From Protofrankia sp. CiP1_Cm_nod1 (GTDB lineage: Bacteria; Actinomycetota; Actinomycetes; Frankiales; Frankiaceae), in the NCBI RefSeq assembly GCF_920888515.1, contig NZ_CAKKTM010000455.1, forward strand, positions 1 through 35,019: a stretch of 35,019 nucleotides of DNA, given 5' to 3'. Made by a program: the position numbers and the translations under genes. How positions within the stretch are numbered: the stretch's first letter is position 1; the number at the start of each line of letters is the position of its first letter. Below, in pieces: positions 1-29,208 of the stretch. The notes beneath the pieces are model-generated. The model was not told the origin of the DNA and did not search any database. It saw nothing but the letters and a program-made list of their open reading frames with translations.

Positions 1-1
1 G

Positions 2-829
2 GCTGGATCCGCCTGGGCCGGCCCGGCCCGCGGCGGGCGCTCCGCCGGCCGCGGGGACCGCGACGAGCCCGAGGAGCTGGTGGTCGGCCGTAACGCGGTG
101 GTCGAGGCGCTGCGGGCGGGCGTCCCCGCGTCCGTCCTCTACGTGGCCGCCGGTACCGAGTACGACGAACGCCTCGACGAGGCCCGCCGGCTGGCCCCAC
201 CCGCCGGGGTGGCCGTCGCGGACGTCGCGCGCGGCGAGCTGGACCGGCTGTGCGGTTCCGCGCCGCACCAGGGGCTGGCGCTGTCGGTGCCGCCGTTCCG
301 CTACGCCCATCCCGACGACCTGCTCGCCCGCGCTCAGGAAGCACCGCCCGGGCTGCTGGTGGCTCTGGACGGCGTGACCGACCCGCGTAACCTCGGGGCG
401 GTCGTCCGGTCGGCGGCGGCGTTCGGCGCGCACGGGGTCGTGGTGCCCGAACGGCGGGCGGCCGGCGTCACGGCGGCGGCCTGGAAGACGTCGGCCGGCA
501 CCGCGGCCCGGCTGCCGGTGGCGCGGGCGACGAACCTGGTGCGCGCGCTGACCGGCTGGGCGCAGGCCGGCCTGTTCGTGGTGGGGCTCGCCGCGGACGG
601 CGAGGTCAGCCTGGACGACCTGGAGATGGCCTCCGACCCGCTCGTGCTGGTCGTCGGCTCGGAGGGCCGCGGCCTGTCGCGGCTGGTCGGGGAGCACTGC
701 GACCTGACCGTGCGGATCCCGATGGCCGGGGATGTCGAGTCGCTCAACGCCGGGGTCGCCGCGGGCGTGGCGCTGGCCGAGATAGCCCGCCGCCGCCGGC
801 TGGACGCGGCGGCGGCGCACCTTCTCTGA
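2..829 (+). CDS. rlmB: 23S rRNA 2'-O-methyltransferase RlmB (SpoU/TrmH family), 5' end outside window
   Basis: The reading frame is open to the left edge, so the gene starts upstream. The first visible residues are Gly/Arg/Ala-rich, like the basic N-terminal extension of actinobacterial RlmB. A GTG at position 80 is an internal Val of the substrate-binding domain ([11 protein letters not shown]), not a convincing start. The SPOUT domain follows: [16 protein letters not shown] (motif 1 with the catalytic-loop Asn and Arg), [13 protein letters not shown] (motif 2) and [15 protein letters not shown] (motif 3), which form the trefoil-knot SAM site. The family methylates the 2'-O of a guanosine in the peptidyl-transferase region of 23S rRNA. 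TrmH-family enzymes acting on other RNAs are the alternative, but the N-terminal extension favours RlmB. Confidence 0.9.
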
Positions 830-857
830 GCCGCCTCCCGCTCTGAGCCGCCTCCCG
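824..857. repeat. 17-bp tandem duplication across the rlmB stop codon
   Basis: Two exact head-to-tail copies of CTCTGAGCCGCCTCCCG (824-840 and 841-857). The first copy contains the rlmB stop codon, so the duplication lies in the 3' untranslated region and leaves the protein unchanged. Confidence 0.9.
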
Positions 858-878
858 CGCGTCCCCTGGCCCGAAGCC

Positions 879-895
879 GGCCGGTGCCGCCGGCC
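879..895. terminator. Weak GC hairpin between convergent rlmB and marR
   Basis: GGCCGG and CCGGCC arms (6 bp) are separated by 5 bases, between two convergent genes. There is no T tract. It is only a candidate bidirectional terminator. Confidence 0.3.
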
Positions 896-902
896 TACCG
901 TG

Positions 903-1460
903 CTACTGGCCGACCACCTGTGACCAGTGCGCTGTCGAGGCGGGTGCGGACGACACGGCAGATGCGGGCAGCCCGGCAGATGCGGGCAACACGGCCGGGG
1001 CGGAGCGTCCGGTCTCGTCGTCGAGGATGGCGACGGTCCGTTCGAGCAGGGAGCGGAACTCCTCCGACTCGGCGGGGGTGAAGACCGCGGTGAGGCGCTG
1101 TTCGACCGCGAGGGCGACGGCGTCCGCCCGGTCCAGCAGCGTCCGGCCGGCGGGGGTCAGCCGGCACTGGAAGACCTTGGCGTGGACGTCCGACCGCTCA
1201 CGCACGATCAGCTCCTTCGCCTCGAGCGTGAGCAGCAGGCTCGCCATCGACTGGGGCGTGACCATACATCGGCGGGCGAGCTGGGCGCCGGAAAGCCCCG
1301 GCGAGCCGGCAAGGGTGAGCAGTACCGTGTACTGCGGGACGGACAGGCCGACGTCACGCAGCGCCCGGGTCTTCTCCCGGATGAGCGCCTGCTCGGCCCG
1401 CTTGATCGAATGCCCGAGGCGGGACGCGGCGACAGCGGGCGACGGTTCGTCCCACTCCAT
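903..1460 (-). CDS. MarR-family transcriptional regulator
   Basis: Predicted 185 aa. The start is the ATG at 1460 because AGGAGAG lies 8-9 bases upstream on the minus strand; an earlier in-frame start at 1529 has no such site. A MarR winged helix is recognisable at about residues 10-140: a dimerisation helix, then VPQYTVLLTLAGSPGLSGAQLARRC (helix-turn-helix) and KELIVRERSDVHAKVFQCRLTPAGR (wing). The C-terminal 40 residues are Ala/Ser/Pro-rich and include an 18-bp tandem duplication (956-991). MarR proteins usually repress themselves or a neighbour and respond to small phenolic or toxic ligands. No obvious target gene adjoins; the facing gene across a 419-bp gap is the FadR-type regulator. Three CGGATA direct repeats lie in its promoter region. 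Confidence 0.82.
   Translation of the reverse strand: MEWDEPSPAVAASRLGHSIKRAEQALIREKTRALRDVGLSVPQYTVLLTLAGSPGLSGAQLARRCMVTPQSMASLLLTLEAKELIVRERSDVHAKVFQCRLTPAGRTLLDRADAVALAVEQRLTAVFTPAESEEFRSLLERTVAILDDETGRSAPAVLPASAGLPASAVSSAPASTAHWSQVVGQ
956..991. repeat. 18-bp tandem repeat in the MarR gene tail
   Basis: Two units, 956-973 and 974-991, are identical over the first 15 bases (CGGCAGATGCGGGCA). They encode repeated Leu-Pro-Ala-Ser-Ala in the C-terminal tail, in frame, so the repeat only lengthens the tail. Confidence 0.85.
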
Positions 1461-1879
1461 TTCGTGGCCTCTCCTCTCGCATCCTCTCGCACACCGTCGG
1501 TACCCCCGGGCGGATACACCGGCCACCACCGGACGGATACACCAGCCCGTGGGCCCGGATATCCCGGGCCGTCACGTCAGCGGCGCGGAAATGGCGGCGT
1601 CAGCACTCTAATACTCCCTACCCACCCCCAACCGGCAGTGGTACATAAACCGTCATCCGTGGTGGCAGCGTGGATACGGCGATGTGTCAGCCAGCGGTGA
1701 CGGCGCGGCGCCCGGTCAGCTCGCCAACCTACCGGAAACCCAAAACAATGGCCAGCGAACACCGGTGTGGGTGGATTCACACGGCGTGGGCGGCCTCACA
1801 AGAATCCGGCCGCGCCGGATCATGACACTCTTCCGCGGTTAGCATGGCTTCTCACGCTTCAGCGAGGAGGCGGGCGACA
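1461..1879. promoter_or_regulatory. Divergent control region between MarR and FadR-type genes
   Basis: This 419-bp gap contains no convincing gene. CGGATA occurs three times in the same orientation at 1511, 1534 and 1556 (spacing 23 and 22 bp), the first two as the longer CGGATACACC. GGCCCGG and CCGGGCC arms lie at 1552-1570. A perfect 10-bp palindrome ACACCGGTGT is at 1759-1768, with GTGTG-N8-CACAC overlapping at 1765-1782. The first group lies just upstream of the MarR gene and the second about 110 bp upstream of the FadR-type gene, so they are candidate operators. Which protein binds each is inference. Confidence 0.4.
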
Positions 1880-2680
1880 ATGGCTGTCAGGACGACGAGA
1901 ACCGCCAGGACGACAAGGGCTGTCAATATGTTCGGGCCGGAACGCGGGCCGAGGTTCAGCAAGTTCTCCGAGCTGGTCGCCGACGACCTCCGGGGCAGGA
2001 TGGCACGCGGCGAGGTCAGGCCCGGCGAGCATCTCCCGCCGGAGAGCGAGCTGATGGACGTGTACGGTGTCGCGAGGCCGACAATGCGCGAGGCGCTGCG
2101 CATCCTCGAGTCCGAGTCCCTGATCGTCCTTCGGCGCGGCTCCCACCTGGGGCCACTCGTCCAGGAGCCGGACACCCGGGTGCTCGCCCGGCAGGCCGGC
2201 CTGCGGCTGCAGATGCAGGGCACCTCCGTCCGGGACCTGCTCGAGGCACGGGCGGTGATGGAACCGGGCGCGGTGGCGCTGGCGGCGGCCCACCGGAGCG
2301 GATCGGACCTGCGGGGCATGCGCGACTGCCTGCTGGCCGCCGCCCGCTCACGCAGCATTCTCGATTTCTCCCGGCCGTCCGCCGAATTCCGCATCCTGGT
2401 CGTGCGGTCATCCCACAACAGAACTCTGATCCTGATGGCGGAACTCGTCTCGGCCCTTCTCCGAAAGGAGCACGAAGCCGTCCTGCGGAAAATTCCCGAG
2501 GCGGCCGGGCAGCAGCTCATCCGGCAGTCGCTCGCCCGCTACGAACGCCTGACCGACCTGATAGAAAACCAGGACGTACGAGGCGCCGTCGCATTCTGGC
2601 AGGACAACGGCGCGGCAGACATCGAACTCGGGACGGACAACACCCCGCAACCGGGCCCGATGCTCACGGTCTACTCCTGA
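1880..2680 (+). CDS. GntR-family regulator, FadR/FCD subfamily
   Basis: Predicted 266 aa. The ATG at 1880 is preferred because GAGGAGG lies 9 bases upstream; a frame-compatible start at 1844 has no ribosome site. The N-terminal GntR winged helix (about residues 25-95) shows LPPESELMDVYGVARPTMREALRILE, and an all-helical FCD ligand domain follows (about 110-240; RDLLEARAVMEPGAVALAAAH). In metal-binding FCD domains an Asp-x3-His motif is usual. Here the matching stretch reads SAEFRILVV, with the Asp and His missing, so the ligand or metal site probably differs. Such proteins control carbon or organic-acid catabolism, but no catabolic operon adjoins and the target is unknown. Confidence 0.82.
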   Translation: MAVRTTRTARTTRAVNMFGPERGPRFSKFSELVADDLRGRMARGEVRPGEHLPPESELMDVYGVARPTMREALRILESESLIVLRRGSHLGPLVQEPDTRVLARQAGLRLQMQGTSVRDLLEARAVMEPGAVALAAAHRSGSDLRGMRDCLLAAARSRSILDFSRPSAEFRILVVRSSHNRTLILMAELVSALLRKEHEAVLRKIPEAAGQQLIRQSLARYERLTDLIENQDVRGAVAFWQDNGAADIELGTDNTPQPGPMLTVYS

Positions 2681-2933
2681 CCAACCATCCCGGGACGCGC
2701 TCCCGACGCAGCAGCCCTCACCCCTCACGACCGGGGACGCGTGGTCACCCACAGGCGGCGCATCCCCGGCCGGCACCTTGTCAGCCCTCGGCAGCCTCAA
2801 CCCCCGGCAGCGGCGCCGGTACGGTCAACAGCAGGCGGCAGAACGGTGACGCGACCGGCGTCCCAACGATCACTCGGCCCCGAGGCGCGTGATCCTCCCC
2901 CGATGCCCTACGCTAGGAAGCGTCCTCGGACCG

Positions 2934-3006
2934 GCCGGCGTGGCGCAACTGGCAGCGCACTCGACTTGTAATCGAGCGGTTAGGGGTTCGAATCCCCTCG
3001 CCGGCT
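2934..3006 (+). tRNA. tRNA-Thr(TGT)
   Basis: A complete 73-base cloverleaf. The acceptor arms GCCGGCG and CGCCGGC pair fully, the anticodon stem CTCGA/TCGAG encloses CTTGTAA (anticodon TGT, Thr), and the T arm is AGGGGTTCGAATCCCCT. The discriminator base is T and CCA is not encoded. An accessory-looking stretch starts just downstream, but I saw no integrase or second copy of the tRNA 3' end to define an attachment-site pair. Confidence 0.95.
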
Positions 3007-3115
3007 CCCTCCTGACCTGGGCCTTCGTCACTGACCCGACCCCGAAGTGATCGTCATGTACCCAGCGGTGTACCCAGGCCATCTCCACTGTCCGGTTCGT
3101 CGGTGGCGTCTGTAA

Positions 3116-13983: not shown

Positions 13984-14472
13984 ATGGACAGCACCCCATC
14001 ACGGAAAGTCGTCAAATCCGCCGATCCTGGCGTGGATTCGTACATTCCAGCGCCACACCCGAAGCCGCGCCAGGGGCTATTTTTATTACTGACGGTAATT
14101 TCGCTTGGCGGGGCGGCGGGGGCGTGTGCCCGCTACGCGGCATCGCTGCTCTGGCCGGCCCCGGCCGGCGCCTTCCCGTGGACGACGGTGCTGGTGAACA
14201 CCACGGGGTGCGCCGCCATCGGCCTGCTGATGGCGGCGATCACCGAGCTGCCCGCGGCGCATCCGCTGCTACGCCCCTTCCTCGGCACCGGTGTCCTCGG
14301 CGGGTACACGACTTTCTCCACCTACGCGGTCGACGCCGAGCGGCTCGTCGACGCCGGCCGGGCCGGGACGGCACTGGCCTACCTGACGTCGACCGCGGCG
14401 CTGGCGCTGGGCGCCGTGTGGCTGGCGTCCACGGCGGGACGATCACTGACAGTGCGCTGGAACGGCCGCTGA
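13984..14472 (+). CDS. crcB: Fluoride channel FluC/CrcB, first copy
   Basis: 162 aa; ATG with AGGAAGG five bases upstream. A hydrophilic 30-residue N-terminus precedes four membrane segments. Family motifs are intact: GACARY (46-51), TVLVNTTG (pore Asn72) and [12 protein letters not shown] (103-114, the Phe-box and central Na+ turn). FluC dimers export F-. It is followed by a DUF190 gene and a second crcB, the usual actinobacterial arrangement. No fluoride riboswitch consensus was recognised upstream. Confidence 0.93.
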
Positions 14473-14521
14473 CGACCGCCGACGACCACTCTGGACCATC
14501 ACGGATAGTGAGGTGGAAGCG

Positions 14522-14866
14522 ATGAGGCTGACCGGGCGGGCACTGCGGCTGACGGTGTTCGTGGGCGAGGGCGACATGTGGCATCACCGTCCGCTGGCAA
14601 CCGAGATCGTGCATCGCGCCCATGCCGCCGGGCTGGCCGGCGCGAGCGTGTTCCGCGGCCTGGAGGGATTCGGCGCCTCCTCCGTCGTGCATACCACCCG
14701 GCTGCTGTCGATGAGCCAGGACCTGCCGACGGCGGTGGTCATCGTCGACGACGAGCCACGGGTCCGCGCGTTCCTGCCCCAGTTGGACGAGCTCGTCACC
14801 GAAGGCCTGGTGATCATCGACGAGGTCGAGGTCATCCGCTACACCGGCCGGGCGGCGGACCGGTGA
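14522..14866 (+). CDS. DUF190 family protein
   Basis: 114 aa from the ATG at 14522 with GAGG eight bases upstream. It shows the DUF190 pattern: [19 protein letters not shown] at the start, then [17 protein letters not shown] and a C-terminal VEVIRYTG strand, a small ferredoxin-like (PII-like) fold. The family is repeatedly found with CrcB, so a regulatory or accessory role in fluoride export is inferred, though the biochemistry is not established. Its stop overlaps the start of the second crcB by GTGA. Confidence 0.9.
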
Positions 14867-15237
14867 GCTGGTTACTGGTGATCGCGGGGGCGATGGTCGG
14901 CGCCCCGGCGCGCTACCTGACCGACCGGGCGGTGCAGGCCCGCCACGACACGCTCTTCCCCTGGGGCACGTTCACCGTGAACGTGGTCGCCAGCGGCGTC
15001 CTCGGCCTGGTCGGCGGGGCGGTGCTGGCCGGCGCCGCCCCCGCCCGGGTGGGCCTGCTGGTCGGCACCGGGCTGTGCGGGGCGTTGAGCACCTATTCGA
15101 CGTTCTCCTACGAGACGCTGCGGCTGGCGCAGGACGGCGCCCGGCTGCTGGCCGCCGCGAACGTTGCCGGCAGCGTCCTCGCCGCCTTCGGCGCCGCCGT
15201 CCTCGGGACGGCCGTCGCCCGGGCGCTGTGGGGATGA
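14863..15237 (+). CDS. crcB: Fluoride channel FluC/CrcB, second copy
   Basis: 124 aa starting with a GTG that overlaps the DUF190 stop codon. GAPARY (13-18), TFTVN (pore Asn40) and the Phe-box STYSTFSYE are present. In place of the canonical GG-x-TT before FST this copy has [10 protein letters not shown], so its central turn differs from the first copy. Paired crcB genes often form heteromeric channels in which one subunit contributes fewer working pore residues, so this may be a complementary subunit. It converges with the MFS gene across 75 bp. Confidence 0.9.
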
Positions 15238-19771: not shown

Positions 19772-21320
19772 CCGGATCGCTCCCCTGGACGGGGACGGCC
19801 GGTTGCGGGGGGACGGCCGGCCGCGAGGGGACGGCCGTCCTCCGGCCGGGTAGCAGGAAGGCGCACGGTACCGCGGCGGCGGTGAGCGCCAGCGTCCACC
19901 AGAAGGTGTTCCCGAAGGCGTCCGCCAGCCCGGCCGCGTCCACCCGGGCGGATCCGCCCCGGTCAGCGATCCCGTGGGCGAGGACCACCGCGAGCACGGC
20001 GGTGCCGAGGGAGCCGCCGACCTGCTGGAAGATCCGCACCGCCGAGGTGGCGCGGGGGATCTCGTCCTGGTGCAGGCCGTGGTAGACCGCTGACATGACA
20101 GGGATCATCACCGCCGCCAGCCCGACACCGCGCAGGGCCAGGGACGCGCCGAGCAGCCACTCGCTGGTGCCGGTGCCGACCTGGGTGTAGGCGGCGGTAC
20201 CCAGCACGCTGAGCACCAGGCCGGTGATGGCGAGCGGCCGGACGGCCCCCCGGTCGGCGAGCCGGCCGGCCACAACCATGGCGATCATCATGCCGATTCC
20301 CTGCGGGGCCATCAGCAGCCCGGCCTCGGCCGCACTGCGCCCACGGACCTGCTGCTCGTACAGCGGGAGCAGGAACATCGCGCCGAACAGCGCGATCCCG
20401 GAGAGGAACATGATCCCGGATGAGCCGGTGAAGGACCGGCTGCGGAACATCCGCAGGTCGATGATCGGCTCCGCCTCGCTCGTCAGGGCATGCGCGACGA
20501 ACAGGACCAGCAGGGCCGCTCCGGCGACCAGCGGGACGACCGCCTCGAGGTCGGTGAAGCTGCCCCGGCTGCCCGCCGCCGAGAAACCGTAGACGACCGC
20601 CGCCAGCGCCGGGGAGAGCAGCACGAGCCCACGGACGTCCAGCGGATGCCGGCCCGGGATCCGCATGTCGGGCAGCCCCCGCCAGGCCAGCAGCAGGGCG
20701 GCCAGGCAGACCGGCACGTTGATGAGGAAGATCCAGCGCCAGCTCAGGGTGTCGATGATCACACCGCCTATGACCGGGCCCAGGACGGGCGTCACCAGGG
20801 CGGGCACGGCGACCGTGGCCATCAGCCGGCCCATCCGCCGCGGGCCGGCGGCCTGGGCGAGGATGGTCTGCATCAGCGGCAGGAGCATGCCACCGCCGAT
20901 GCCCTGCAGCACCCGGAAGGCGATCAGGCTGCCGGCTGACCAGGCCATCCCGCACAGCACCGACCCGACGAGGAACAACGCCAGCGACAGCATCCACATC
21001 CGCTTGCCGCCGAAGCGCTCCACCGACCAGCCGGTCAGTGGGATCACCATCGCCAGCGCGAGCATGTAGCCGGTGCTGACCCACTGGATCGTCGAGATCC
21101 CGACTCCGAACGAACGCCCCAGGGTGTCGATGGCGACTGCGATGATCGTGAGGTCCAGTTGCACGACCACCGTGCCGACCAGGATGATCCCGGCGAGACG
21201 GAGCAGCGCCGGGTCGAGCCGGTCGCTCTCCGCCCGCTTCGCCTTCGCCGGCTCCGGCCCGCCCGGCTCGTCCGGCTCGTCCGGCCGCTCGGATGCGGTG
21301 GACGCCTGGGTCTGTGCCAT
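19740..21320 (-). CDS. MFS drug:H+ antiporter, DHA2 type (third exporter)
   Basis: 526 aa from the ATG at 21320, where GGAGG lies six bases upstream; the open frame to 21467 has no ribosome site. After a polar Pro/Glu-rich N-terminus come about 14 membrane segments with VVQLDLTIIAVAIDTLGRSF (helix 1, motif D1-like), PVLGPVIGGVIIDTLSWRWIF (motif C) and FRVLQGIGGGMLLPL. The family exports lipophilic drugs or metabolites. It is divergent from a TetR regulator across a 191-bp region containing a 27-bp near-perfect palindrome. The last residues are Pro/Ala-rich and overlap the 3' end of the other TetR gene. Confidence 0.9.
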   Translation of the reverse strand: MAQTQASTASERPDEPDEPGGPEPAKAKRAESDRLDPALLRLAGIILVGTVVVQLDLTIIAVAIDTLGRSFGVGISTIQWVSTGYMLALAMVIPLTGWSVERFGGKRMWMLSLALFLVGSVLCGMAWSAGSLIAFRVLQGIGGGMLLPLMQTILAQAAGPRRMGRLMATVAVPALVTPVLGPVIGGVIIDTLSWRWIFLINVPVCLAALLLAWRGLPDMRIPGRHPLDVRGLVLLSPALAAVVYGFSAAGSRGSFTDLEAVVPLVAGAALLVLFVAHALTSEAEPIIDLRMFRSRSFTGSSGIMFLSGIALFGAMFLLPLYEQQVRGRSAAEAGLLMAPQGIGMMIAMVVAGRLADRGAVRPLAITGLVLSVLGTAAYTQVGTGTSEWLLGASLALRGVGLAAVMIPVMSAVYHGLHQDEIPRATSAVRIFQQVGGSLGTAVLAVVLAHGIADRGGSARVDAAGLADAFGNTFWWTLALTAAAVPCAFLLPGRRTAVPSRPAVPPQPAVPVQGSDPVSADAARRSS

Positions 21321-21414
21321 CACGAGCCTCCGGGAACGGTTCGGGGACGGTCGATGCCTGGAACGCCCTGGCGCGACGTAGCCGGACGGATACGCGACCA
21401 CGGCCGACGCTACA

Positions 21415-21502
21415 CTGTATCGACAACCCGTACAGCGTCTTCCAGGCGATACGGCGTATCGATTCACCGTACGAAGTATCGCTGGATCGGATCCGGCGAT
21501 AC
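21415..21502. promoter_or_regulatory. GTATCG half-site array with two palindromes
   Basis: GTATCG or its complement occurs at 21417, 21447, 21456, 21476 and 21497. CGATAC-GGC-GTATCG (21447-21461) is a perfect palindrome. 21476-21502 is a 27-bp palindrome with one mismatched pair, centred on GGATC-G-GATCC. The latter overlaps TACCCT (21500-21505), seven bases before the TetR start. Autoregulation and repression of the divergent MFS gene are likely. Confidence 0.65.
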
Positions 21503-21511
21503 CCTCGTCCC

Positions 21512-22333
21512 GTGCCCGGTGACCGCCATGCCGCGATCCAGACGCCGGACGCCTCCCCGCGGGCCGACCGGCCGCCGGCAGGCCTGCTGTGGGCCCGCCT
21601 GGCCAAGGAGAGGAAACCGGGGCTCACCCGGCAGGCGATCGTCGACACGGCGATCGCGCTGGCCGACGCCGAAGGGCTGGAGGCGGTCTCCATCCGGCGG
21701 GTCGCGGCGGCGCTGGGCGCCCGTCCGATGAGCCTCTACTCGCACATCCAGCGCAAGGACGACCTCTTCGAGCTGATGACCGACGAGGCAATGGCCGACA
21801 TCATCGTTCCCGAACCGCTGCCCGCCGACTGGCGGGACGCGCTGTGGACGATCGCCCAGCGAACGCGCGCTGTTGCCCTGCGACATCCGTGGATCGTGAA
21901 GGCCAGAGGCCACTGGCCGCGCCTGGGGCCCAACGCCATGCGCCATCTGGAGCAGTCCCTGGCCGCCGTCGCCGGCCTCGACATCGACCAGCGGCATCGG
22001 ATCCGCATTCTGCGGGCCGTCGACACCTACACGGTCGGGCACCTCGTCACCGAACGGCTCGACCAGGTCAGGCCGCCCCGGGGAGACGTGGACGCCACCG
22101 AGCAGCGGCAGCTGGTCCAGAGCTACCTGCGGACTCTCGTCGACACCGGCGACTTTCCCCGGATCGCCGAGCTGGATCCGGACCTGTCCGCGCTGACCGA
22201 CCACGGCGATGCGCAGCAGAGGTTCGACGAGGGCCTGGCGTGGGTGCTGGCCGGCATCGCCGCCTCCCTGCCGGAGCTCCCCCGCGGCCCTCGCCGCCGC
22301 CCGGACGCCGTCCGGGGAGCGGGCCGGCGGTAA
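21512..22333 (+). CDS. TetR-family regulator with tetracycline-repressor-like C-terminal domain
   Basis: 273 aa from the GTG at 21512; an upstream open frame to 21293 runs through the operator array and is rejected. Helix-turn-helix at about residues 37-85: GLTRQAIVDTAIALADAEGL, then SIRRVAAALGARPMSLYSHI and QRKDDLFELM. The long C-terminal region (WRDALWTIAQRTRAVALRHP) fits the TetR_C_1 class used by drug-responsive repressors. The likely -10 box ends seven bases before the start codon, indicating a leaderless mRNA. It controls the divergent MFS exporter by inference. Confidence 0.88.
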   Translation: MPGDRHAAIQTPDASPRADRPPAGLLWARLAKERKPGLTRQAIVDTAIALADAEGLEAVSIRRVAAALGARPMSLYSHIQRKDDLFELMTDEAMADIIVPEPLPADWRDALWTIAQRTRAVALRHPWIVKARGHWPRLGPNAMRHLEQSLAAVAGLDIDQRHRIRILRAVDTYTVGHLVTERLDQVRPPRGDVDATEQRQLVQSYLRTLVDTGDFPRIAELDPDLSALTDHGDAQQRFDEGLAWVLAGIAASLPELPRGPRRRPDAVRGAGRR

Positions 22334-22340
22334 CCGCGCC

Positions 22341-22370
22341 GCGACAGGGCCAGTCGCGACAGGGCCGGAC
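22341..22370. repeat. 15-bp tandem repeat
   Basis: GCGACAGGGCCAGTC (22341-22355) and GCGACAGGGCCGGAC (22356-22370). The shared core GTCGCGACAGGGCCG differs at two of 15 positions from the unit at the vapC start (7006-7044). Nearby, GTACGG-N6-CCGTAC (22419-22436) is a separate small dyad of unknown use. Confidence 0.7.
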
Positions 22371-22502
22371 AATCAGCGCGGCCGGGTACGGACGAGCGAA
22401 TCGACGCCTCTCCGCGCAGTACGGCCCAGACCGTACATAAACACCCAATTGGTATAACTCGAACACCCAGAGTGAGCAATACCACAATCCTCAATGCAGT
22501 GG

Positions 22503-22549
22503 TTGACATGTCTTACGCATTGCGTAAATCTACGCAATGCGTAAGACAT
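22503..22549 (+). promoter_or_regulatory. Promoter and paired operators of phasin-like gene 1
   Basis: TTGACA (22503-22508) is a consensus -35 box. It is followed by TTACGC-ATT-GCGTAA (22513-22527) and, 17 bp on centre to centre, TACGCA-A-TGCGTA (22531-22543). Together they form a perfect 19-bp inverted repeat with a 4-base spacer (22508-22526 and 22531-22549). The -10 element (TAAATC region, 22525-22530) lies between the two palindromes. The same layout is found upstream of the second phasin-like gene. Confidence 0.8.
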
Positions 22550-22608
22550 ACGGGGCGTCGGGACCGCACCACCAGCCCGGACAGCGTCAACCATGAAGGA
22601 GGGGCAGC

Positions 22609-22863
22609 ATGGCCACTACCACCCGTCGGCGGAAGAACACGCTGACGAAGTTCATCGAGGACATCGTCGACAACACCAAGGACCTCGTCGACGACCTCAT
22701 CGACCGCAGCCGCGACCTTGAGGACGACCTGCGCAGGACCGCGCGGAACGTCGTCGACGACGACAGCCCCAGCAGCGATGAGCTGCAGGACCTCAAGAAG
22801 GCCCTCGCGGAGCTGACCTCCAAGGTGAACCAGCTCGCCGAGACCAAGGCTGGCAGCAAGTAG
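22609..22863 (+). CDS. Phasin-like small amphipathic protein 1
   Basis: 84 aa; ATG with AAGGAGGGG five bases upstream. A basic start (TTRRRKNTLTKF) is followed by a long charged amphipathic helix (DIVDNTKDLVDDLIDRSRDL) and a C-terminal coiled-coil with Leu/Val heptads (LQDLKKALAELTSKVNQLAE), the pattern of granule-surface phasins and poly-hydroxyalkanoate granule proteins. It is a clear paralogue of the 27772-28029 product (shared KNTLTKFI, KDLVDDLID, LQDLKKAL). A PhaR-type gene lies immediately downstream, which supports the granule assignment. A strong stem-loop follows the stop, so this gene is probably transcribed much more than the operon behind it. Direct proof of granule binding is lacking. 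Confidence 0.72.
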   Translation: MATTTRRRKNTLTKFIEDIVDNTKDLVDDLIDRSRDLEDDLRRTARNVVDDDSPSSDELQDLKKALAELTSKVNQLAETKAGSK

Positions 22864-22876
22864 TTGTCGCATGGCA

Positions 22877-22918
22877 ATCAGGCCGGCGCTCTGGACGGAT
22901 CCAGGGCGCCGGCCTGAT
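22877..22918 (+). terminator. Stem-loop after phasin-like gene 1
   Basis: Arms 22877-22895 and 22900-22918 (19 bp, one G-T type mismatch) around CGGA, then CTTATGTTT. It begins 13 bases after the stop. It would act as a terminator or partial attenuator before the phaR operon. Confidence 0.8.
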
Positions 22919-22960
22919 CTTATGTTTACAATCAAGCATGAGGCAAAGGATGGACCATCG

Positions 22961-23452
22961 ATGAACGCGGCTGCCATGCCGGTCTCGGATGATGGTGCGA
23001 CCGAGCGGCTGATCAGGCGTTACGCGAACCGCAAGCTCTACGACACGGTGGAGCGGCGCTTCACCTCGCTCCGCCAGATCGAGCGGCTCATTCGCGACGG
23101 CGAGAACATCCGGGTCGAGGACCACGAGACCGGCGCCGACATGACAGCCCACTTTCTCGGCCGGGTGCTGAGCAACCGGGACTCGACGGACCTGCCCCTG
23201 GCCGAGCTGATCCGCATGCCGAACCGCATCGCCCGGATCGTCGTCGAAGACCGCCATGAGCAGCAGGACGAGTTGCGCGATCTACGAGCACAGATCGACG
23301 AACTCACCCGTGTGGTGTCCGCGCTCATCAGCGACGCTGACACCACGCGACCCGCGAAACCGGCAGCAGACCGCGACCAGAAAGATCATGTCTCCCCCAA
23401 GCCACCCCCTGATGCTCGCAAAGGCTCGGACGCGCAGAATGTGGACCAATGA
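22961..23452 (+). CDS. phaR: PhaR-type polyhydroxyalkanoate synthesis regulator
   Basis: 163 aa from the ATG at 22961 (AAAGGA ten bases upstream). An ATG at 22922 would add 13 residues, and earlier starts fall inside the terminator stem. The N-terminal PHB/PHA accumulation regulator DNA-binding domain is plain: LIRRYANRKLYDTVERRFTS, then LRQIERLIRDGENIRVEDHE and TGADMT. A coiled-coil (EQQDELRDLRAQIDELTRVV) and a charged tail follow. In proteobacteria PhaR binds both phasin promoters and the PHA granule, freeing the promoters when polymer accumulates. By analogy this protein is the candidate ligand of the TTACGC-N3-GCGTAA sites. The stop overlaps the next gene by ATGA. Confidence 0.85.
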   Translation: MNAAAMPVSDDGATERLIRRYANRKLYDTVERRFTSLRQIERLIRDGENIRVEDHETGADMTAHFLGRVLSNRDSTDLPLAELIRMPNRIARIVVEDRHEQQDELRDLRAQIDELTRVVSALISDADTTRPAKPAADRDQKDHVSPKPPPDARKGSDAQNVDQ

Positions 23453-23880
23453 GCCTGAATCAGCGCCGTACTCCACGCCCGCCCCGGGGGCACTACCGCC
23501 GCCTGCGACGTGACAGCGACGGCAGCCTCTACGACATCAACGAACATCGGCGGATTCCGCTCAGCGAGATCCGCGAGGACATCCAGGCCGGTCGCCGGTT
23601 CCGAGCTGTCCGTGACGGCTCGGGCGAGGACTGTACCAACCAGGTCCTGGCCGACGCGCTCAAGGGCGCGCTGGTGGACAAGGTTGGTCTGCAGACCGGC
23701 ATACCCGCGAGCCTCTCCGCTATTGCCGGTTCGCTACTGTCCGCTCTCGACAAGCGAGACAATGGCGGCGGCATGACATCCCATAATGGCTTGACGTCTC
23801 ATCGTAGCCTACGGGGGCAGCGCGGCAACAGCTTTCCCGGTACCGGCGATGAAAACCGTACGATCCCAGGCCGCGACTGA
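23449..23880 (+). CDS. Second, diverged PhaR-N-like protein
   Basis: 143 aa, coupled to phaR by ATGA overlap. Residues 16-70 (YRRLRRDSDGSLYDINEHRR, then IPLSEIREDIQAGRRFRAVR, DGSGEDCTNQVLADAL) align along their length with the DNA-binding domain of the preceding PhaR: LYD, then L-x2-I-x3-I-x2-G, then V-x-D-x-x-G-x-D-x-T. The recognition-region residues RYANRKLYD are replaced by RRDSDGSLYD, so DNA specificity, if any, must differ. The C-terminal 60 residues are low-complexity and polar. It may be a modifying partner, a granule-binding form or a second repressor. I know of no named family for it. Confidence 0.6.
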   Translation: MSLNQRRTPRPPRGHYRRLRRDSDGSLYDINEHRRIPLSEIREDIQAGRRFRAVRDGSGEDCTNQVLADALKGALVDKVGLQTGIPASLSAIAGSLLSALDKRDNGGGMTSHNGLTSHRSLRGQRGNSFPGTGDENRTIPGRD

Positions 23881-23897
23881 GAAGGGGAGACGGTCAG

Positions 23898-24383
23898 GTG
23901 CATCATGAGACCACGGTGCGGGTACACGCGCCGATCGGGGAGGTCTGGACCGAACTGGAACGCCTGGACGACATCCTCAGGCGTTCACCGGAGATCTCCG
24001 GCCCGATCCAGGTCGACGAGGACGGCGCCCACCGCATCAAGGTGCGGCTGTCGTGGGGACCGCTGAGCCGTCTCGTCGACGCGACCGCCCACATCGACTC
24101 CGCGATCCCGCCGCACCAGCTCACCTGGTCCATCCGCGTGCCCTCCCTGGACGTGCTCTCGACCCAGGTCTTCGACCTGACCTCGGTCGCCGAGGACGAG
24201 ACCAGCCTGCGTTATGTCGCGGAAGTCGACTGCGGACACCGGTATCCCTCTAAGCTGCGACGCGTGCTACCCGACCACGTCGAAGAACATGTCGAGTCGA
24301 TGGCGTCCCGGATAGGGACCCTGGCGGCCCAGCACTGGCAGAGCAAGCAACGGCTGCTCTTCCGCTCCGGCCCGGCCGCCTGA
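23898..24383 (+). CDS. SRPBCC (START/polyketide-cyclase-like) protein
   Basis: 161 aa from a GTG with GAAGGGGAG eight bases upstream. The SRPBCC helix-grip pattern is seen: HHETTVRVHAPIGEVWTELE at the start, then IKVRLSWGPLSRLVDATAHI, QLTWSIRVP, TSLRYVAEVDCG, and a long C-terminal helix HVEEHVESMASRIGTLAAQH. Such proteins enclose a hydrophobic cavity and bind or transfer lipids and other nonpolar ligands. Its stop overlaps the SDR start (TGATG). In a granule-associated operon it might carry a lipid or polymer precursor, but this is inference from position. Confidence 0.75.
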   Translation: MHHETTVRVHAPIGEVWTELERLDDILRRSPEISGPIQVDEDGAHRIKVRLSWGPLSRLVDATAHIDSAIPPHQLTWSIRVPSLDVLSTQVFDLTSVAEDETSLRYVAEVDCGHRYPSKLRRVLPDHVEEHVESMASRIGTLAAQHWQSKQRLLFRSGPAA

Positions 24384-25144
24384 TGGGTGACGAGGGCACT
24401 CTCCTCGGTAAAGTAGCCTTCGTGGCGGACGGCACGCGTAACCTTGGCGCCAGTCTGACCGACGCACTGCTCGCCCGTGGGGCGCGCGTGGCCGTCGGCT
24501 ACAGTCGGAGGCGCCCCGAAGTCGACGAGTTCCTGGAACAGCGCAGCGGCAAACCGTTGTCGGCGCATCAGGGAAACGTGGCATCCTGGCAGGACTGCTC
24601 CCGGGCGTTGGCCGAGGCCGCCGCCCATCACGGTGGGCTCGACATCCTGGTCACGACGATCGGCAATCAGCAGGCGACAGGCATCGTGAACGCGGTGCCT
24701 CTGACATCCCTGTCTCCGCAGGAATGGCAGCGCCTCCTGCTGGGCAGTCTGTCCGGTGTGTTCAATCTCACCTCAGCGGCTGCGCCGCATCTCTCAGGGC
24801 GAGCGACGGCCCGCATCGTGACCGTGCTCAACGCCCTGCCCGGCGGCAAGAGCTCCACCAACCCGCACACCTGGTTACGTGACGCCTTGTTCACCATCAG
24901 CCGACAGTTCGCGCGGGAGCTCGCGCCAGCCGGCATCACCGTCAACACCATCGAGTCGGGCCTGTTACACGACGAGTCGTTCGATGTCTTCCCTGGTCTG
25001 CAGGAGGAGGCCGAGTCCCTGGTACCGGCCGGCCGCCTCGGCGAACACGAGGAGGTGGCCCGGGTACTGCTGTTCCTGCTCGACCCGGCGTCATCCTACG
25101 TGACCGGCCAGGTTCTCGGCGTCGACGGCGGCATCAGGACATGA
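24383..25144 (+). CDS. SDR-fold protein lacking the catalytic residues
   Basis: 253 aa of Rossmann type: KVAFVADGTRNLGASLTDAL (altered nucleotide-binding loop; TG-x3-G-x-G is usual), HQGNVASWQDC, and GITVNTIESGLL near the end, with FLLDPASSYVTGQVLGVDGG closing the fold as in FabG/PhaB-like enzymes. The catalytic set is missing. The YxxxK region reads HTWLR (His for Tyr162, Arg for Lys166), the catalytic Ser position lies in TVLNA, and NNAG is replaced by TTIGNQ. A regulatory, structural or ligand-binding role is more likely than dehydrogenase activity. It overlaps the neighbouring genes on both sides. Confidence 0.78.
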   Translation: MGDEGTLLGKVAFVADGTRNLGASLTDALLARGARVAVGYSRRRPEVDEFLEQRSGKPLSAHQGNVASWQDCSRALAEAAAHHGGLDILVTTIGNQQATGIVNAVPLTSLSPQEWQRLLLGSLSGVFNLTSAAAPHLSGRATARIVTVLNALPGGKSSTNPHTWLRDALFTISRQFARELAPAGITVNTIESGLLHDESFDVFPGLQEEAESLVPAGRLGEHEEVARVLLFLLDPASSYVTGQVLGVDGGIRT

Positions 25145-26676
25145 GCGACAGCCGTGCCCGGGTGGTCGCGGGAGTTCTCTCCCAACTTCTTCTACAGGAG
25201 ATCAGCGGAGCGGTGGGGCTGCGTCGCAAGCGTGGCGACGACTCCGCCGACAGCGAGGAACGCGAAAAAACCCGGGCCAGGGGGATCCGGCACGCGCTCG
25301 AGTCACTCGGCCCGTTCTATGTGAAGATCGGCCAGATGCTGTCGACCCGCCCCGACATAATGCCGCAATACATGATCGACGAGTTTCAGAACCTCCACGA
25401 AAAGGTCTCCGTCGCGCCGTTCGAGACCTTCGAGCCCATTCTGGAGGAGGAGCTCGGGCGCGACTGGCGCAGCGCCTTCCTGGACATCAAGGTCGACAAA
25501 CCGCTCGGCGCGGCCTCGCTCGCGCAGGTCTACGCCGTCACGCTACGCACCGGCGAACGGGCGGTCGTCAAGATCCAACGGCCGGGTATCGCCCCGGTGA
25601 TGCTCGACGACATGGCCATGTTGAAGCGGCTGGGGAAGTTCTTCGCCAAACGGGTGCCCGACCTCGACGACGTCTTCGACCTCACCGCCATGATGGAGAT
25701 CATGTTCGACGCCATGAAGGCCGAACTGGACTTCCGCGTCGAGGCACGCAACATGGACGCCGCGCGGGAGGCGATGGAGGGGTTCGACAACCTCGCCGTG
25801 CCCGAGGTCATCTTCGTCACCAAGAAGGTGCTGGTGCAGCAGCTCGCACCCGGCACGTCCATCCGTGACGCCAACCGCGACAAGTTCACCAACGCCGAGC
25901 GCGAGGCGATCGGCCGCGACCTGCTCAGCTTCATGTACCGCGGCTTCTTCGTCGACCGGATGTTCCACGCCGACCCCCATCCCGGCAACGTCTTCGTCGA
26001 ACCCGGCGGCAAGGCGTACCTCATCGACTGGGGAATGGTCGGGAGAATGGACCGGCGCCAGTCGCTGACGTTCGCGAGCATTCTGGTCGCCCTCTCGCAG
26101 AACGACGGTCATGGGCTGGCAAAAGCATGGATCGAGCTGGGCCGGGCCAGCTCCTGGGCCAACATTCCGGCATTCGTCAGCGACTGCTGCGGTTTCGTGC
26201 CCACCATCGCCGACGCCAGCCTGGAGGATCTCAACCTCGGTGTCGCGCTGACGTCGATCCTGAAGTTCTCCAGCCGGCGCGGTATCCAGACCAGCCCGGT
26301 GGTCGCGCTGCTCGGCAAGTCGTTCGCCAATCTCGAGGGCTCGGTGCGCTATCTCTCGCCCGAGCTCTCGGTGACCGACGTCTTCGAGGAGGAGTTCCGG
26401 GACATCCTCTTCGATCTCGTCCGCGAGCTGCTCTCCCAGGAGCAGGCGGCGCAGTTGGTGCTCGACCTGATGGGCGGGTCGATGTCCATCGTCGAGCAAC
26501 TGCGTACTCTCGGTCGAGATATCTCCAACCGTGAGTTCACTGTCAACGTCAACGCGGTACAGGCCCGCCGGTCACGTCAGGAGGACCGGGCCGACGCGAG
26601 GACACGCAGCAACCGCAACATGTTGCTGGCCGTCGCCGCCGCAGCCTGGCTCGCCAGACGACGCCGAGCAGGCTGA
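25141..26676 (+). CDS. ABC1/ADCK/UbiB-family atypical kinase
   Basis: 511 aa; ATG overlapping the SDR stop codon by ATGA. The family signature is complete: KxGQ motif FYVKIGQMLSTRPDIMP (Lys62-Gln65), Ala-rich loop LGAASLAQVY (122-131) in place of a Gly-rich loop, Lys144 (VVKIQRPG), catalytic FHADPHPGN (275-283) and metal-binding LIDWG (Asp296). It ends in a short hydrophobic segment and an Arg-rich tail (MLLAVAAAAWLARRRR), a probable membrane or lipid anchor. The family supports isoprenoid-quinone or other lipid pathways through ATPase activity. Here it closes the phaR operon, which suggests a lipid-related job at the granule or membrane. The target is unknown. Confidence 0.9.
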   Translation: MSDSRARVVAGVLSQLLLQEISGAVGLRRKRGDDSADSEEREKTRARGIRHALESLGPFYVKIGQMLSTRPDIMPQYMIDEFQNLHEKVSVAPFETFEPILEEELGRDWRSAFLDIKVDKPLGAASLAQVYAVTLRTGERAVVKIQRPGIAPVMLDDMAMLKRLGKFFAKRVPDLDDVFDLTAMMEIMFDAMKAELDFRVEARNMDAAREAMEGFDNLAVPEVIFVTKKVLVQQLAPGTSIRDANRDKFTNAEREAIGRDLLSFMYRGFFVDRMFHADPHPGNVFVEPGGKAYLIDWGMVGRMDRRQSLTFASILVALSQNDGHGLAKAWIELGRASSWANIPAFVSDCCGFVPTIADASLEDLNLGVALTSILKFSSRRGIQTSPVVALLGKSFANLEGSVRYLSPELSVTDVFEEEFRDILFDLVRELLSQEQAAQLVLDLMGGSMSIVEQLRTLGRDISNREFTVNVNAVQARRSRQEDRADARTRSNRNMLLAVAAAAWLARRRRAG

Positions 26677-26728
26677 GCGGATGCTGTCCCTCCCGTCGGA
26701 AGGCGTAGGTGGTTTCGGTCGTCACCAT

Positions 26729-26798
26729 GGCTGTTTCCACCTACGGCTTCCGTGCTCGTAGGTGGAAACAGCCGTTGCCACAGCGGTTTCCACCTACG
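26729..26798. terminator. Bidirectional terminator with three copies of one arm
   Basis: 26729-26745 and 26757-26773 are perfect 17-bp inverted arms (GGCTGTTTCCACCTACG and its complement) with an 11-base loop. A third copy of GTTTCCACCTACG (26786-26798) can pair with the second arm instead. A related GCGTAGGTGGTTTC is at 26704-26717. It lies between convergent genes, directly against the stop codon of the minus-strand gene. Confidence 0.75.
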
Positions 26799-27704
26799 CT
26801 ACGGCTGTGGCTCCCGCGCGGAGGATGACTCCGAACGGACCGTGCGCGAACGGTCGCCTCGCCACACCGTCGCGCGGCTGTTCCTGATGCCGAGGAGCAT
26901 GTCCGTCCCGTCTCGGCGGATCTCTCCCTCGCCCCGGAGCAGTACCCCTCGTTTGCTGTCGAGCCGGTGACCGCCGGTGTGGGCCGTGACGGACACCGGT
27001 GCGCCGGAGGTGACGCCGACCAGCCTCGCCAACGCCGCCGGAACCCGGACAAGGGCGGTGTCCGGCTCCCAGGTGCCGGGCAGCACGACCGGCCCGGCAG
27101 CCGTCCGAAGGCCCACGCTCACGGGACGTGCATGCTCGAGGAGTTCGTCGAGGATCCGCCGCTCGTCCGCGGACCATGGCCCGGCGGGAGGTGTGATCCG
27201 TGTCTCGGGTGTTCCGGTAAGAAGCAGGTTCGCTTCGGGCCAGTCCCCGGCGGCCACGATCCCGCCTCCGGACGTCGTTTCGATGGTGCGGACGACGTCG
27301 AGCTCGACGAGTACCCGACTGGTGGGCAGGGTCGCGGTACGCAGGCCCAGGTCGGCCGCCATGCCGGTGAGGTGGCGGTTGTTGCGGCCGATGAACGAGA
27401 CCACGGTCGTCGGGGCACGCAGCAGGCGGCCCGGGGACAGCAGGTCGACCGGGGAGAGTGGATCAACGATCGACGCGTATCCGGACGCCGCGAGAAACTT
27501 CGTGCCAGCACGGATGAGCACGCTCATCCGGTCGTCCCGCCGTAACGCGCGTATCTTGACGGAGCTACGGGGAGCGACAAGTAACAGGTGGGGGTCGTCG
27601 ACGTCGAATATCTGTGGGGTCACATGCGGACCGAGCCTGGTCAGCACCCCGACATCCACGGTGTCGGCGTCGTCCACCCACGGCTCGAAGACGATGGCAG
27701 GCAT
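26799..27704 (-). CDS. Flavin split-barrel (pyridoxamine-phosphate-oxidase-like) protein with extra C-terminal domain
   Basis: 301 aa. Residues 10-95 fit the PNPOx-like split barrel: VGVLTRLGPHVTPQIFDVDD, LLLVAPRSSVKIRALRRDDR, MSVLIRAGTKFLAASGYASI, with the SVK and LRRDDR positions that contact flavin phosphate in the family. The remaining 200 residues have no family I recognise; they include TRITPPAGPWSADERRILDE and a later strand-rich stretch (LVRVPAALARLVGVTSGAPV). FMN, F420 or heme are all possible ligands. It is co-oriented with phasin-like gene 2, 67 bp downstream of it across a stem-loop, so it belongs to that unit. The ribosome site is weak. Confidence 0.65.
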   Translation of the reverse strand: MPAIVFEPWVDDADTVDVGVLTRLGPHVTPQIFDVDDPHLLLVAPRSSVKIRALRRDDRMSVLIRAGTKFLAASGYASIVDPLSPVDLLSPGRLLRAPTTVVSFIGRNNRHLTGMAADLGLRTATLPTSRVLVELDVVRTIETTSGGGIVAAGDWPEANLLLTGTPETRITPPAGPWSADERRILDELLEHARPVSVGLRTAAGPVVLPGTWEPDTALVRVPAALARLVGVTSGAPVSVTAHTGGHRLDSKRGVLLRGEGEIRRDGTDMLLGIRNSRATVWRGDRSRTVRSESSSAREPQP

Positions 27705-27723
27705 AAAGCCCCATAACGTAGCA

Positions 27724-27759
27724 ACGGGGTTGGCGCCGAATATCCGACACCAACCCCGT
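27724..27759 (-). terminator. Stem-loop after phasin-like gene 2
   Basis: ACGGGGTTGG (27724-27733) and CCAACCCCGT (27750-27759) with a 16-base loop. It lies 12 bases beyond the stop codon of the phasin-like gene on the minus strand and before the split-barrel gene. It mirrors the stem-loop after phasin-like gene 1. Confidence 0.7.
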
Positions 27760-27771
27760 AATCCGTCAGTG

Positions 27772-28029
27772 CTATTTACCGGTGCCCTTGACCGCGGAAA
27801 GCTGGTCGAGTTTCGCGGTCAGCTCGGTGAGCGCCTTCTTGAGATCCTGAAGATCGTCACCGCTGGGGATGTCGCCCTCTTCCTTGACCACGTTGGTGAC
27901 GGCCTTGCGGGTGTCGTTCTCGACGTCCTTCGCCCGGTCGATCAGGTCGTCTACCAGGTCCTTGCTGTCGTCGATGACATCACTGATGAACTTTGTGAGA
28001 GTGTTCTTACGACGGGTCCCGGTTGCCAC
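27772..28029 (-). CDS. Phasin-like small amphipathic protein 2
   Basis: 85 aa from a GTG at 28029, with GGGAGG six bases upstream; the longer open frame to 28371 runs through the operator and is rejected. The sequence parallels protein 1 along its whole length: basic ATGTRRKNTLTKFISDVID, acidic helix DSKDLVDDLIDRAKDVEND, and C-terminal LQDLKKALTELTAKLDQLSA. The two differ mainly in the middle and C-terminal tail, so both appear to be under selection. It has the same promoter-operator layout as copy 1, so the two are probably co-regulated, perhaps by the PhaR-type protein. Confidence 0.72.
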   Translation of the reverse strand: MATGTRRKNTLTKFISDVIDDSKDLVDDLIDRAKDVENDTRKAVTNVVKEEGDIPSGDDLQDLKKALTELTAKLDQLSAVKGTGK

Positions 28030-28064
28030 GGCACGCCTCCCTGAAGGCTCTTGTTCTGCGCGAT

Positions 28065-28109
28065 TTACGCGATGCGTAGAACTTACGCGGTGCGTAATAA
28101 TCATGTCAA
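28065..28109 (-). promoter_or_regulatory. Promoter and paired operators of phasin-like gene 2
   Basis: On the minus strand: TTGACA (28109-28104), TTACGC-ACC-GCGTAA (28097-28083) and CTACGC-ATC-GCGTAA (28079-28065). The palindrome centres are 18 bp apart. TAAGTT, a TANNNT-type -10, lies between them 18 bases after the -35. The match to 22503-22549 is base-for-base in most positions. Confidence 0.8.
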
Positions 28110-28412
28110 GGATTGCCAGCGGAAACGATCTGATGATCGTCGTCACATACCGGCAACACCGATACGACAGGCCGGCCGGCAAGCGGGCGGACACCAGAAG
28201 TGACCATACGGCTACAGCCAATAACTGACAGTAGCGATCCGAGCTCCCGTCAACGCTCTCCGAGCAGCATCCGCTCGGCCGCACGGAGGCACACCCGCCA
28301 CGGGGCCGCCGAGCATCACAATAATGATCATAAAGGTCGGATGGGTATGCGGTATTCGACATCCGACACACCGCCGAGACATGCGGAGTACACCTGCTAC
28401 CGTTCCGCTCAA
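28110..28412. other. Gene-free region between phasin-like gene 2 and the ABC importer
   Basis: No convincing gene. A small hairpin CCGAGC-N7-GCTCGG is at 28260-28278, and an AT-rich patch with the palindrome ATGATCAT is near 28324-28331. These may belong to the importer promoter, but no clear -35/-10 pair was found. Confidence 0.4.
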
Positions 28413-28454
28413 CCTGACCGAAGGGTTACACGTCCTGACCGAAGGGTTGCACGT
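28413..28454 (+). repeat. 21-bp tandem repeat duplicating the ribosome site of the ABC gene
   Basis: 28413-28433 and 28434-28454 differ at one base. Each holds GAAGGG followed six bases later by CAC-GT. In copy 2 this gives a GTG start at 28453; in copy 1 the matching codon is GTC. Confidence 0.85.
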
Positions 28455-29208
28455 GACGAAGAGCGCGCGAGGTGAACCCCTGATCGTCATGGAGGGCGTC
28501 GAGAAGTCCTTCGGCGGTTTCCGGGCGCTGCACGTGATCGACCTGACCGTCCACAGCGGCGAGGTGCTCGTCGTCATCGGCCCGTCGGGATCGGGCAAGT
28601 CGACGCTGTGCCGCTGCATCAACCGGCTGGAGACCATCGACGCCGGGCGGATCACGATCGACGGGCGGCAGCTGCCCGAGGAGGGCCGCGCGCTCGCGCG
28701 GTTACGGGCCGAGGTGGGCATGGTCTTCCAGGCGTTCAACCTCTTCGCCCACAAGACCGCGCTGGAGAACGTCACGCTCGGGCCGACAAAGGTCCGGGGA
28801 ATCCCCCGGGAGGCGGCCGAGCGCCGAGGCCGGGAACTGCTCGACCGGGTCGGCGTCGGCGCGAAGGCCGGCAGCTATCCGGCCGAGCTTTCCGGCGGGC
28901 AGCAACAACGTGTCGCGATCGCCCGGGCGCTGGCCATGGACCCAAAAGTGATCCTCTTCGACGAGCCCACCTCGGCCCTCGACCCGGAATACATCGCCGA
29001 AGTGCTCGACGTCATGACCGAACTCGCCCGCGACGGCATGACCATGGTGGTCGTCACCCACGAAATGGGATTCGCTCGGCAGGCCGCGGACCGGGTCGTG
29101 TTCATGGCCGACGGCGGAATCCTCGAGGAGGGCACGCCGGTGGAGTTCTTCGACAGCCCACGGACGCAGCGGGCTCGCGATTTCCTGGCCCGGGTCCTCC
29201 CGCACTGA
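28453..29208 (+). CDS. Amino-acid ABC importer ATP-binding protein (GluA/GlnQ type)
   Basis: 251 aa from the GTG at 28453, with GAAGGG six bases upstream inside the second 21-bp repeat. Walker [10 protein letters not shown] (43-51), Q-loop [10 protein letters not shown], signature LSGGQQQR (146-153), Walker [15 protein letters not shown] (167-180) and [11 protein letters not shown] with the switch His mark a polar-amino-acid ATPase. It heads an operon with a lipoprotein and two permeases, together a complete importer. Energises uptake at the inner membrane. Confidence 0.93.

Follow-up and report, generated by a model that had tools for sequence, protein, structure and literature searches.

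A candidate PhaR-controlled granule-coat regulon with two paralogous phasin-like genes in an actinobacterium

Two converging units and their putative control sites

The stretch of DNA analyzed here, termed the window, is a contig of 35,019 nt (NZ_CAKKTM010000455.1; C452 in the set analyzed) from Protofrankia sp. CiP1_Cm_nod1, an actinobacterial metagenome-assembled genome (MAG) of 5.2 Mb in 476 contigs that is 87% complete. Positions 22503–28109 contain two converging units, each of which begins with a gene for a small amphipathic protein, termed phasA and phasB. The locus is quite likely a PhaR-controlled granule-coat regulon of the polyhydroxyalkanoate (PHA) type. This reading draws mainly on the same tandem palindrome, TTACGCNNNGCGTAA, found in both phasin promoters, on the homology of the encoded proteins and on the conserved linkage of the genes in other actinobacteria.

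The gene order of the right-facing operon is phasA, PhaR, PhaR2, SRPBCC, SDR and UbiB, with overlaps of 1–4 bases at the joins PhaR/PhaR2, SRPBCC/SDR and SDR/UbiB. The left-facing unit consists of phasB, a 16-bp stem-loop and a split-barrel gene (Table 1). A preliminary description of the region had placed PhaR-type, SRPBCC, SDR-fold and UbiB genes in one overlapping operon and a split-barrel gene behind the second phasin-like gene, and all are present at these places; it missed PhaR2, a second PHB_acc_N protein. Its end points coincide with the two phasin promoters: 22503 and 28109 are each the first base of a TTGACA −35 box.

The sequences upstream of phasA and phasB are TTGACAtgtcTTACGCATTGCGTAAatCTACGCAATGCGTAA and TTGACAtgattaTTACGCACCGCGTAAgttCTACGCATCGCGTAA, respectively. 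With up to one mismatch allowed, TTACGCNNNGCGTAA has four sites in the window where 0.04 are expected, and all are at the two phasin promoters. Operator 1 occupies the spacer between the −35 and −10 boxes and its last TAA is the start of the −10 box, while operator 2 begins 2–3 bases past operator 1, just after the −10 box. In the published PhaR consensus of Sinorhizobium meliloti, AT-rich arms flank the core YGCRNYGCR, and the phaP1 and phaP2 promoters contain two copies (PMC12542648). All four window sites fit this core. The core alone occurs 29 times in the window, thus the significance lies in the arms and in the placement.

The TTGxxx-N16/18-TAAxxx geometry around operator 1 is common to nine actinobacterial phasin promoters, i.e. 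the two of the window, three in Sporichthya (L059), two in Pseudonocardia eucalypti (L058 and L171) and one each in L060 and L063. The promoter of L060 and one of those in Sporichthya (L059a) carry one operator instead of two. A sigma-70 consensus scan of the region gave no promoter, the −10 boxes TAAATC and TAAGTT being outside its rule, and the promoter assignment therefore rests on conservation across loci. In Nocardioidaceae and Mycobacterium, related sites precede phasin or PhaR genes; in Chloroflexota such genes are preceded by variants similar to TGACGC/GCGTCA. The regulon that had been proposed earlier is supported by these operators, which are tandem and identical in the two promoters, recur in other actinobacteria and fit the published PhaR site. 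No other site matching at 11 or more of 12 positions was found in 472 kb of the same genome (about 9% of the genome was surveyed).

Table 1. Features of the two converging units, with positions in the window
Feature	Position	Strand	Basis or detail
phasA promoter	22503–22530	+	TTGACA 22503–22508, 16-nt spacer, TAAATC 22525–22530; layout conserved at nine actinobacterial phasin promoters
Candidate PhaR-type operator 1 of phasA, TTACGCATTGCGTAA	22513–22527	+	fits PhaR core YGCRNYGCR
Candidate PhaR-type operator 2 of phasA, CTACGCAATGCGTAA	22530–22544	+	sequence match
phasA, small amphipathic phasin-like protein, 84 aa	22609–22863	+	open reading frame, paralogy, profile homology
19-bp stem-loop between phasA and PhaR (terminator or attenuator)	22877–22918	+	folding
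PhaR-type regulator, PHB_acc_N domain, 163 aa	22961–23452	+	PF07879, 62.7 bits
PhaR2, second divergent PHB_acc_N protein, 143 aa	23449–23880	+	PF07879, E = 7e-5, 23.3 bits
SRPBCC/START-fold protein, CoxG-like, long C-terminal helix	23898–24383	+	model and fold match
SDR-fold pseudoenzyme, catalytic Asn-Ser-Tyr-Lys all replaced	24383–25144	+	alignment to FabG
UbiB/ABC1 atypical kinase-like protein	25141–26676	+	PF03109, 185.9 bits
PPOX-like split-barrel protein, 301 aa, behind phasB	26799–27704	−	model and homologues
16-bp stem-loop between phasB and split-barrel gene	27724–27759	−	folding
phasB, small amphipathic phasin-like protein, 85 aa	27772–28029	−	open reading frame, paralogy, profile homology
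Candidate PhaR-type operator 2 of phasB, CTACGCATCGCGTAA	28065–28079	−	sequence match
Candidate PhaR-type operator 1 of phasB, TTACGCACCGCGTAA	28083–28097	−	sequence match
phasB promoter	28080–28109	−	TTGACA 28109–28104, 18-nt spacer, TAAGTT 28085–28080

The segment that carries the phasA stem-loop (22864–22930) folds at −44.4 kcal/mol (z = −6.8) and that of phasB (27705–27771) at −35.2 kcal/mol (z = −5.2). Hairpins are also found 3′ of phasin genes in L171, L061, L062 and L059. Hairpins at this position would suit a system in which abundant phasin but little regulator is required. An Rfam search of positions 21000–29000 gave no match.

The convergent intergenic region (26677–26798) contains repeated copies of GTAGGTGGAAAC and GTTTCCACCTAC and has a very stable fold (−66 kcal/mol, z = −7.3). 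This is probably a pair of back-to-back terminators.

The encoded proteins

PhaR scores well above the PF07879 cut-off of 25 bits and retains the RYANRKLYDT core. It scores 47.3 bits against the TIGR01848 equivalog model, where the cut-off is 109.45, and the match covers the N-terminal domain only. The actinobacterial PhaR domains form one clade (support 99/95, from a short alignment). PhaR2 is a divergent member with orthologues in L059, L067 and L171, and in relatives it adjoins PhaR or UbiB.

The phasA and phasB proteins are paralogues that, as had been described, align end to end; their identity is about 64%. At 84–85 aa they display the small amphipathic helical character of phasins. The hydrophobic moment of helix 1 (30 residues) is 0.65 in phasA and 0.57 in phasB, where shuffled sequences have a mean of 0.29–0.30; these values were matched by 0 and 1 of 1000 shuffles, respectively. 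With PF05597, phasB scores 19.6 bits (E = 1e-3), which is below the gathering cut-off of 28.8, and phasA gives no hit; phasin neighbours of PhaR in Chloroflexota score 45.6 and 55.5 bits. Alignment by hhalign of the family profile with that of PF05597-type phasins adjoining PhaR in Chloroflexota and other phyla gives a probability of 96.4% and an E-value of 1.4e-9 over 62 columns. The label phasin-like of the preliminary description thus holds as remote homology to PF05597 by profile–profile comparison. The actinobacterial family displays the signature DxxKDhhDD, in which D, K and DD are invariant in 16 sequences.

When 397 genomes of the phylum were searched with the phasin model, scores above 30 bits were found in the source genome only. 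Nine other matches (21–28 bits) were taken for coiled-coil noise, as was a similarity of phasA to the anti-phage protein ZorA (PADLOC, E = 7e-4).

The small proteins could instead be coiled-coil DNA-binding, nucleoid or cell-envelope proteins that are merely regulated by the PHB_acc_N protein. Single-sequence Pfam hits are weak and mixed, and short coiled coils are easily mis-assigned. However, the profile–profile match is to phasins, PF05597 is the most frequent Pfam hit among family members, a PHB_acc_N gene or its operator is nearly always adjacent, and phaC co-occurs with the system (see below). This explanation is very improbable.

PhaR proteins of several phyla are also matched by the phasin profile, with E-values down to 1e-26 (L065 9995–10672, L084 9995–10672 and many others). 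The C-terminal half of PhaR appears to have the phasin coiled-coil motif in common, and this suggests that PhaR and phasins have a common granule-binding part. Separately, helical-looking proteins of about 90–110 aa are located beside phaC in the actinobacterial MAG BP_133 (L150 7747–8085) and in P. eucalypti (L153 10603–10872). These have no Pfam family match and may be a separate actinobacterial phasin type.

The AlphaFold model of the SRPBCC protein (pLDDT 87) matches CoxG and other START folds. In the SDR-fold protein, alignment with FabG shows that the catalytic Asn, Ser, Tyr and Lys are replaced by Ser, Asn, His and Arg, so that it lacks the catalytic tetrad of active FabG/PhaB-type SDR enzymes. 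The catalytic Tyr and Lys are missing from all four SDR orthologues and by sequence the protein is a conserved pseudoenzyme. In the UbiB/ABC1 protein the motifs KxGQ, ExD and DPHPGN/DWG are intact and the C-terminus has a hydrophobic segment; the protein scores 290.1 bits with the TIGR01982 ubiquinone biosynthesis equivalog, below the cut-off of 487.55. The N-terminal half of the split-barrel model is unreliable (pLDDT about 30) and the C-terminal half matches FMN-type split barrels. Homologues of this PPOX-like protein are also found outside phasin loci. The accessory genes may handle lipids, as had been proposed.

Linkage in relatives and the nature of the polymer

A lack of conserved linkage in relatives had been named as a ground for rejecting the regulon. 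The gene set is in fact linked in Sporichthya, P. eucalypti and the MAG BP_133 (Actinomycetota), although the genus and family mates of the source organism that were searched are without it. The phasin, PhaR, SRPBCC and SDR genes occur in this order in all three (L059, L058 and L060), and in L059, where they are right-facing, and L060 the split-barrel homologue is directly 5′ of the phasin–PhaR operon. A left-facing unit in L059 contains PhaR2, UbiB (52% identity) and three phasins with a Nudix-like gene between. About 100 kb from L058, P. eucalypti has an operator, a phasin, a hairpin, PhaR2 and UbiB (60%), and on another contig of BP_133 UbiB (47%) adjoins two phasin-like genes. The phasin–PhaR pair is conserved in Nocardioidaceae, Mycobacterium and Pseudonocardia.

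In BP_133, the two phasin-like genes that face UbiB (L172 2476–2947) are without a PhaR operator, and TCAACATATGTTGA-type palindromes are present beside a divergent TetR-like gene. A swap of regulator is possible there.

UbiB orthologues with 47–60% identity are beside a phasin-like gene in 4 of 4 genomes. All four genomes with SRPBCC and SDR have orthologues above 45%; the six genomes that have phasin–PhaR or PhaR only lack them. This linkage, together with a START fold nearest to CoxG-type structures, could point to a quinone or isoprenoid surface module, in which UbiB (Coq8/ABC1K-like) and the START protein (Coq10/CoxG-like) would load or guard lipophilic quinones on the granule, in the way suggested for ABC1 kinases of plant plastoglobules, and the phasins would provide the surface only. 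ABC1K proteins belong to the core proteins of plastoglobules, where they accompany fibrillins (PMC4915526), and CoQ distribution in yeast is governed by UbiB proteins (PMC8346625). However, UbiB orthologues of 41% identity occur without phasins in two genomes (G046 and G068), and the phasin–PhaR pairs of Nocardioidaceae and Mycobacterium are without SRPBCC, SDR and this UbiB. The quinone reading is rather unlikely. Equally tentative, and of similarly low likelihood, is a dedicated granule-surface module in which the kinase, the CoxG/Coq10-like START protein and a dead-SDR scaffold would manage quinones or isoprenoid lipids, as a bacterial counterpart of the plastoglobule wired to PhaR so as to appear only with the granule.

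Phasin-less UbiB relatives (40–41% identity) were also seen at L048 10755–11297 and L049 10392–10934, directly downstream of a conserved 180-aa protein.

For the granule-coat regulon, the distribution of phaC bears on the polymer. Of nine other actinobacteria that carry this PhaR, seven have the gene, and 397 genomes of the phylum gave 47 strong and 75 total matches (about 12%–19%). The Fisher p-value for co-occurrence with PhaR is 2e-5 (7/9 vs 50/396, shared ancestry ignored). PHA is favoured for the system because phaC co-occurs in relatives, and it is most likely the polymer there. For the source organism, in whose MAG no phaC (PhaC_N) was found, PHA is a less certain assignment.

The same regulon logic might serve a neutral-lipid droplet (triacylglycerol or wax ester), where horizontally acquired PhaR and phasins would coat droplets made by WS/DGAT acyltransferases. 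Neither the source genome nor its genus gives a PhaC_N match, the genome contains two WS/DGAT genes, and the SRPBCC, UbiB and split-barrel genes hint at a role in lipid handling. However, WS/DGAT is found in nearly all genomes tested and therefore discriminates nothing; with no operator near either gene, it was rejected as the linked polymer enzyme. The presence of phaC in most other PhaR carriers, and a literature that describes PhaR as a PHA sensor, also speak against a neutral-lipid droplet, which is considered unlikely.

Several points count against the PHA-type regulon. PhaR is below its equivalog cut-off and the phasins are below the PF05597 gathering cut-off. No operator was found at nine phaC loci (one unrelated 10/12 match is present in L155), so these phaC genes are without it and phaC was rejected as a PhaR target. 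The genus and family mates are without PhaR and, with the exception of G006, without phaC, and the co-occurrence test does not correct for shared ancestry. The two WS/DGAT genes make triacylglycerol or wax inclusions possible. The lack of phaC in the source assembly is a weak counterpoint, because the MAG is incomplete and fragmented.

The contig is not a contaminant, since its RlmB gene (80–829) has 96% identity to that of a genus mate. Positions 1–3099 are largely colinear with genus mates, to just beyond tRNA-Thr (2933–3009). No colinearity was found for the granule cluster, past the tRNA, in the genus-mate stretches examined. PHB_acc_N genes were not found in the other genus and family genomes searched, nor in 396 other genomes of the phylum, and those genus and family mates also gave no split-barrel gene. 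This distribution suggests that the cluster was either acquired or lost in a patchy manner.

Colinearity with three genus mates stops within about 90 bases after tRNA-Thr. The contig beyond this point is perhaps variable, and no integrase was seen in the window gene list. At 14188–15237, two small membrane proteins flank a 114-aa protein; by eye these resemble a CrcB pair with a DUF190 protein (fluoride channel).

Proposed mechanism and comparison with known systems

In the mechanism we infer, the PhaR-type protein would, without polymer, bind the tandem operators astride the −10 box and block both phasin promoters, and with them its own operon (negative feedback). As polymer forms, PhaR would be titrated onto the granule, the operators would be freed and both phasins made in bulk, while the hairpin after each phasin gene would keep the levels of the regulator and of the accessory proteins lower. 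The amphipathic first helix of the phasins would coat the granule and the C-terminal coiled coil would oligomerise. The co-expressed SRPBCC, pseudo-SDR, UbiB, PhaR2 and split-barrel proteins would most likely have lipid or acyl ligands and act on these at the surface of the granule. PhaR of proteobacteria occupies phasin promoters and departs on binding granules (PMC3079617); in the window, the places where the operators lie, their overlap with the promoters and the autoregulated position of PhaR fit this model.

PhaR–phasin control was worked out in proteobacteria, and the same operator core is now found in Actinomycetota with a conserved promoter geometry. Through this locus a protein of the ABC1/UbiB family, the biochemical role of which is still under debate, is connected with what is probably a lipid or polymer particle of a bacterium. 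Function is testable in an isolate, P. eucalypti DSM 45351. More granule proteins can be sought with the operator as a sequence tag, and the short phasins could serve biotechnology as granule tags.

The regulator–phasin circuit is of a known kind. No account of its actinobacterial form (intra-operonic PhaR, a second PHB_acc_N protein, pseudo-SDR, START protein and UbiB relative) was found in the open-access papers searched, nor any prior description there of UbiB with phasin, Pseudonocardia with phasin or SDR/SRPBCC with phasin. This agrees with the earlier statement that the accessory genes are not known from a described PHA locus.

The window resembles the PhaR–phaP circuits of Paracoccus denitrificans, Cupriavidus necator and S. 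meliloti (AniA) in its PHB_acc_N regulator, small amphipathic phasins and YGCRNYGCR core, and the S. meliloti phaP1 and phaP2 promoters in having two operator copies each. Unlike in the proteobacterial circuits, the regulator is inside the phasin operon, the operator arms are TTA/TAA, and a second PHB_acc_N protein and the SRPBCC, pseudo-SDR, UbiB and split-barrel genes are present. The phasins are about 84 aa, the host is an actinobacterium and phaC is not nearby.

With the PF05597 (PHA_granule_1) phasins of Chloroflexota the family has in common profile homology, an adjacent PhaR and the C-terminal coiled-coil motif P-[ST]-x-x-[DE]-h-x-x-L, however the actinobacterial forms are shorter, have their own signature and score below the Pfam threshold. 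The GA14 phasin of Rhodococcus ruber is an actinobacterial PHA granule coat protein (PMC5658603) and is likened here by description only. The SRPBCC protein has the fold of CoxG START proteins, with close structural matches to 2pcs and M. smegmatis CoxG, but sequence identity is about 15% and its gene does not belong to a CO dehydrogenase locus. The resemblance to plastoglobules, where ABC1K proteins occur with fibrillins (PMC4915526), is no more than an analogy: a UbiB/ABC1 protein would here be associated with the coat proteins of a putative bacterial granule. The plastoglobule differs in its coat proteins, in being a plastid particle and in having no common regulator.

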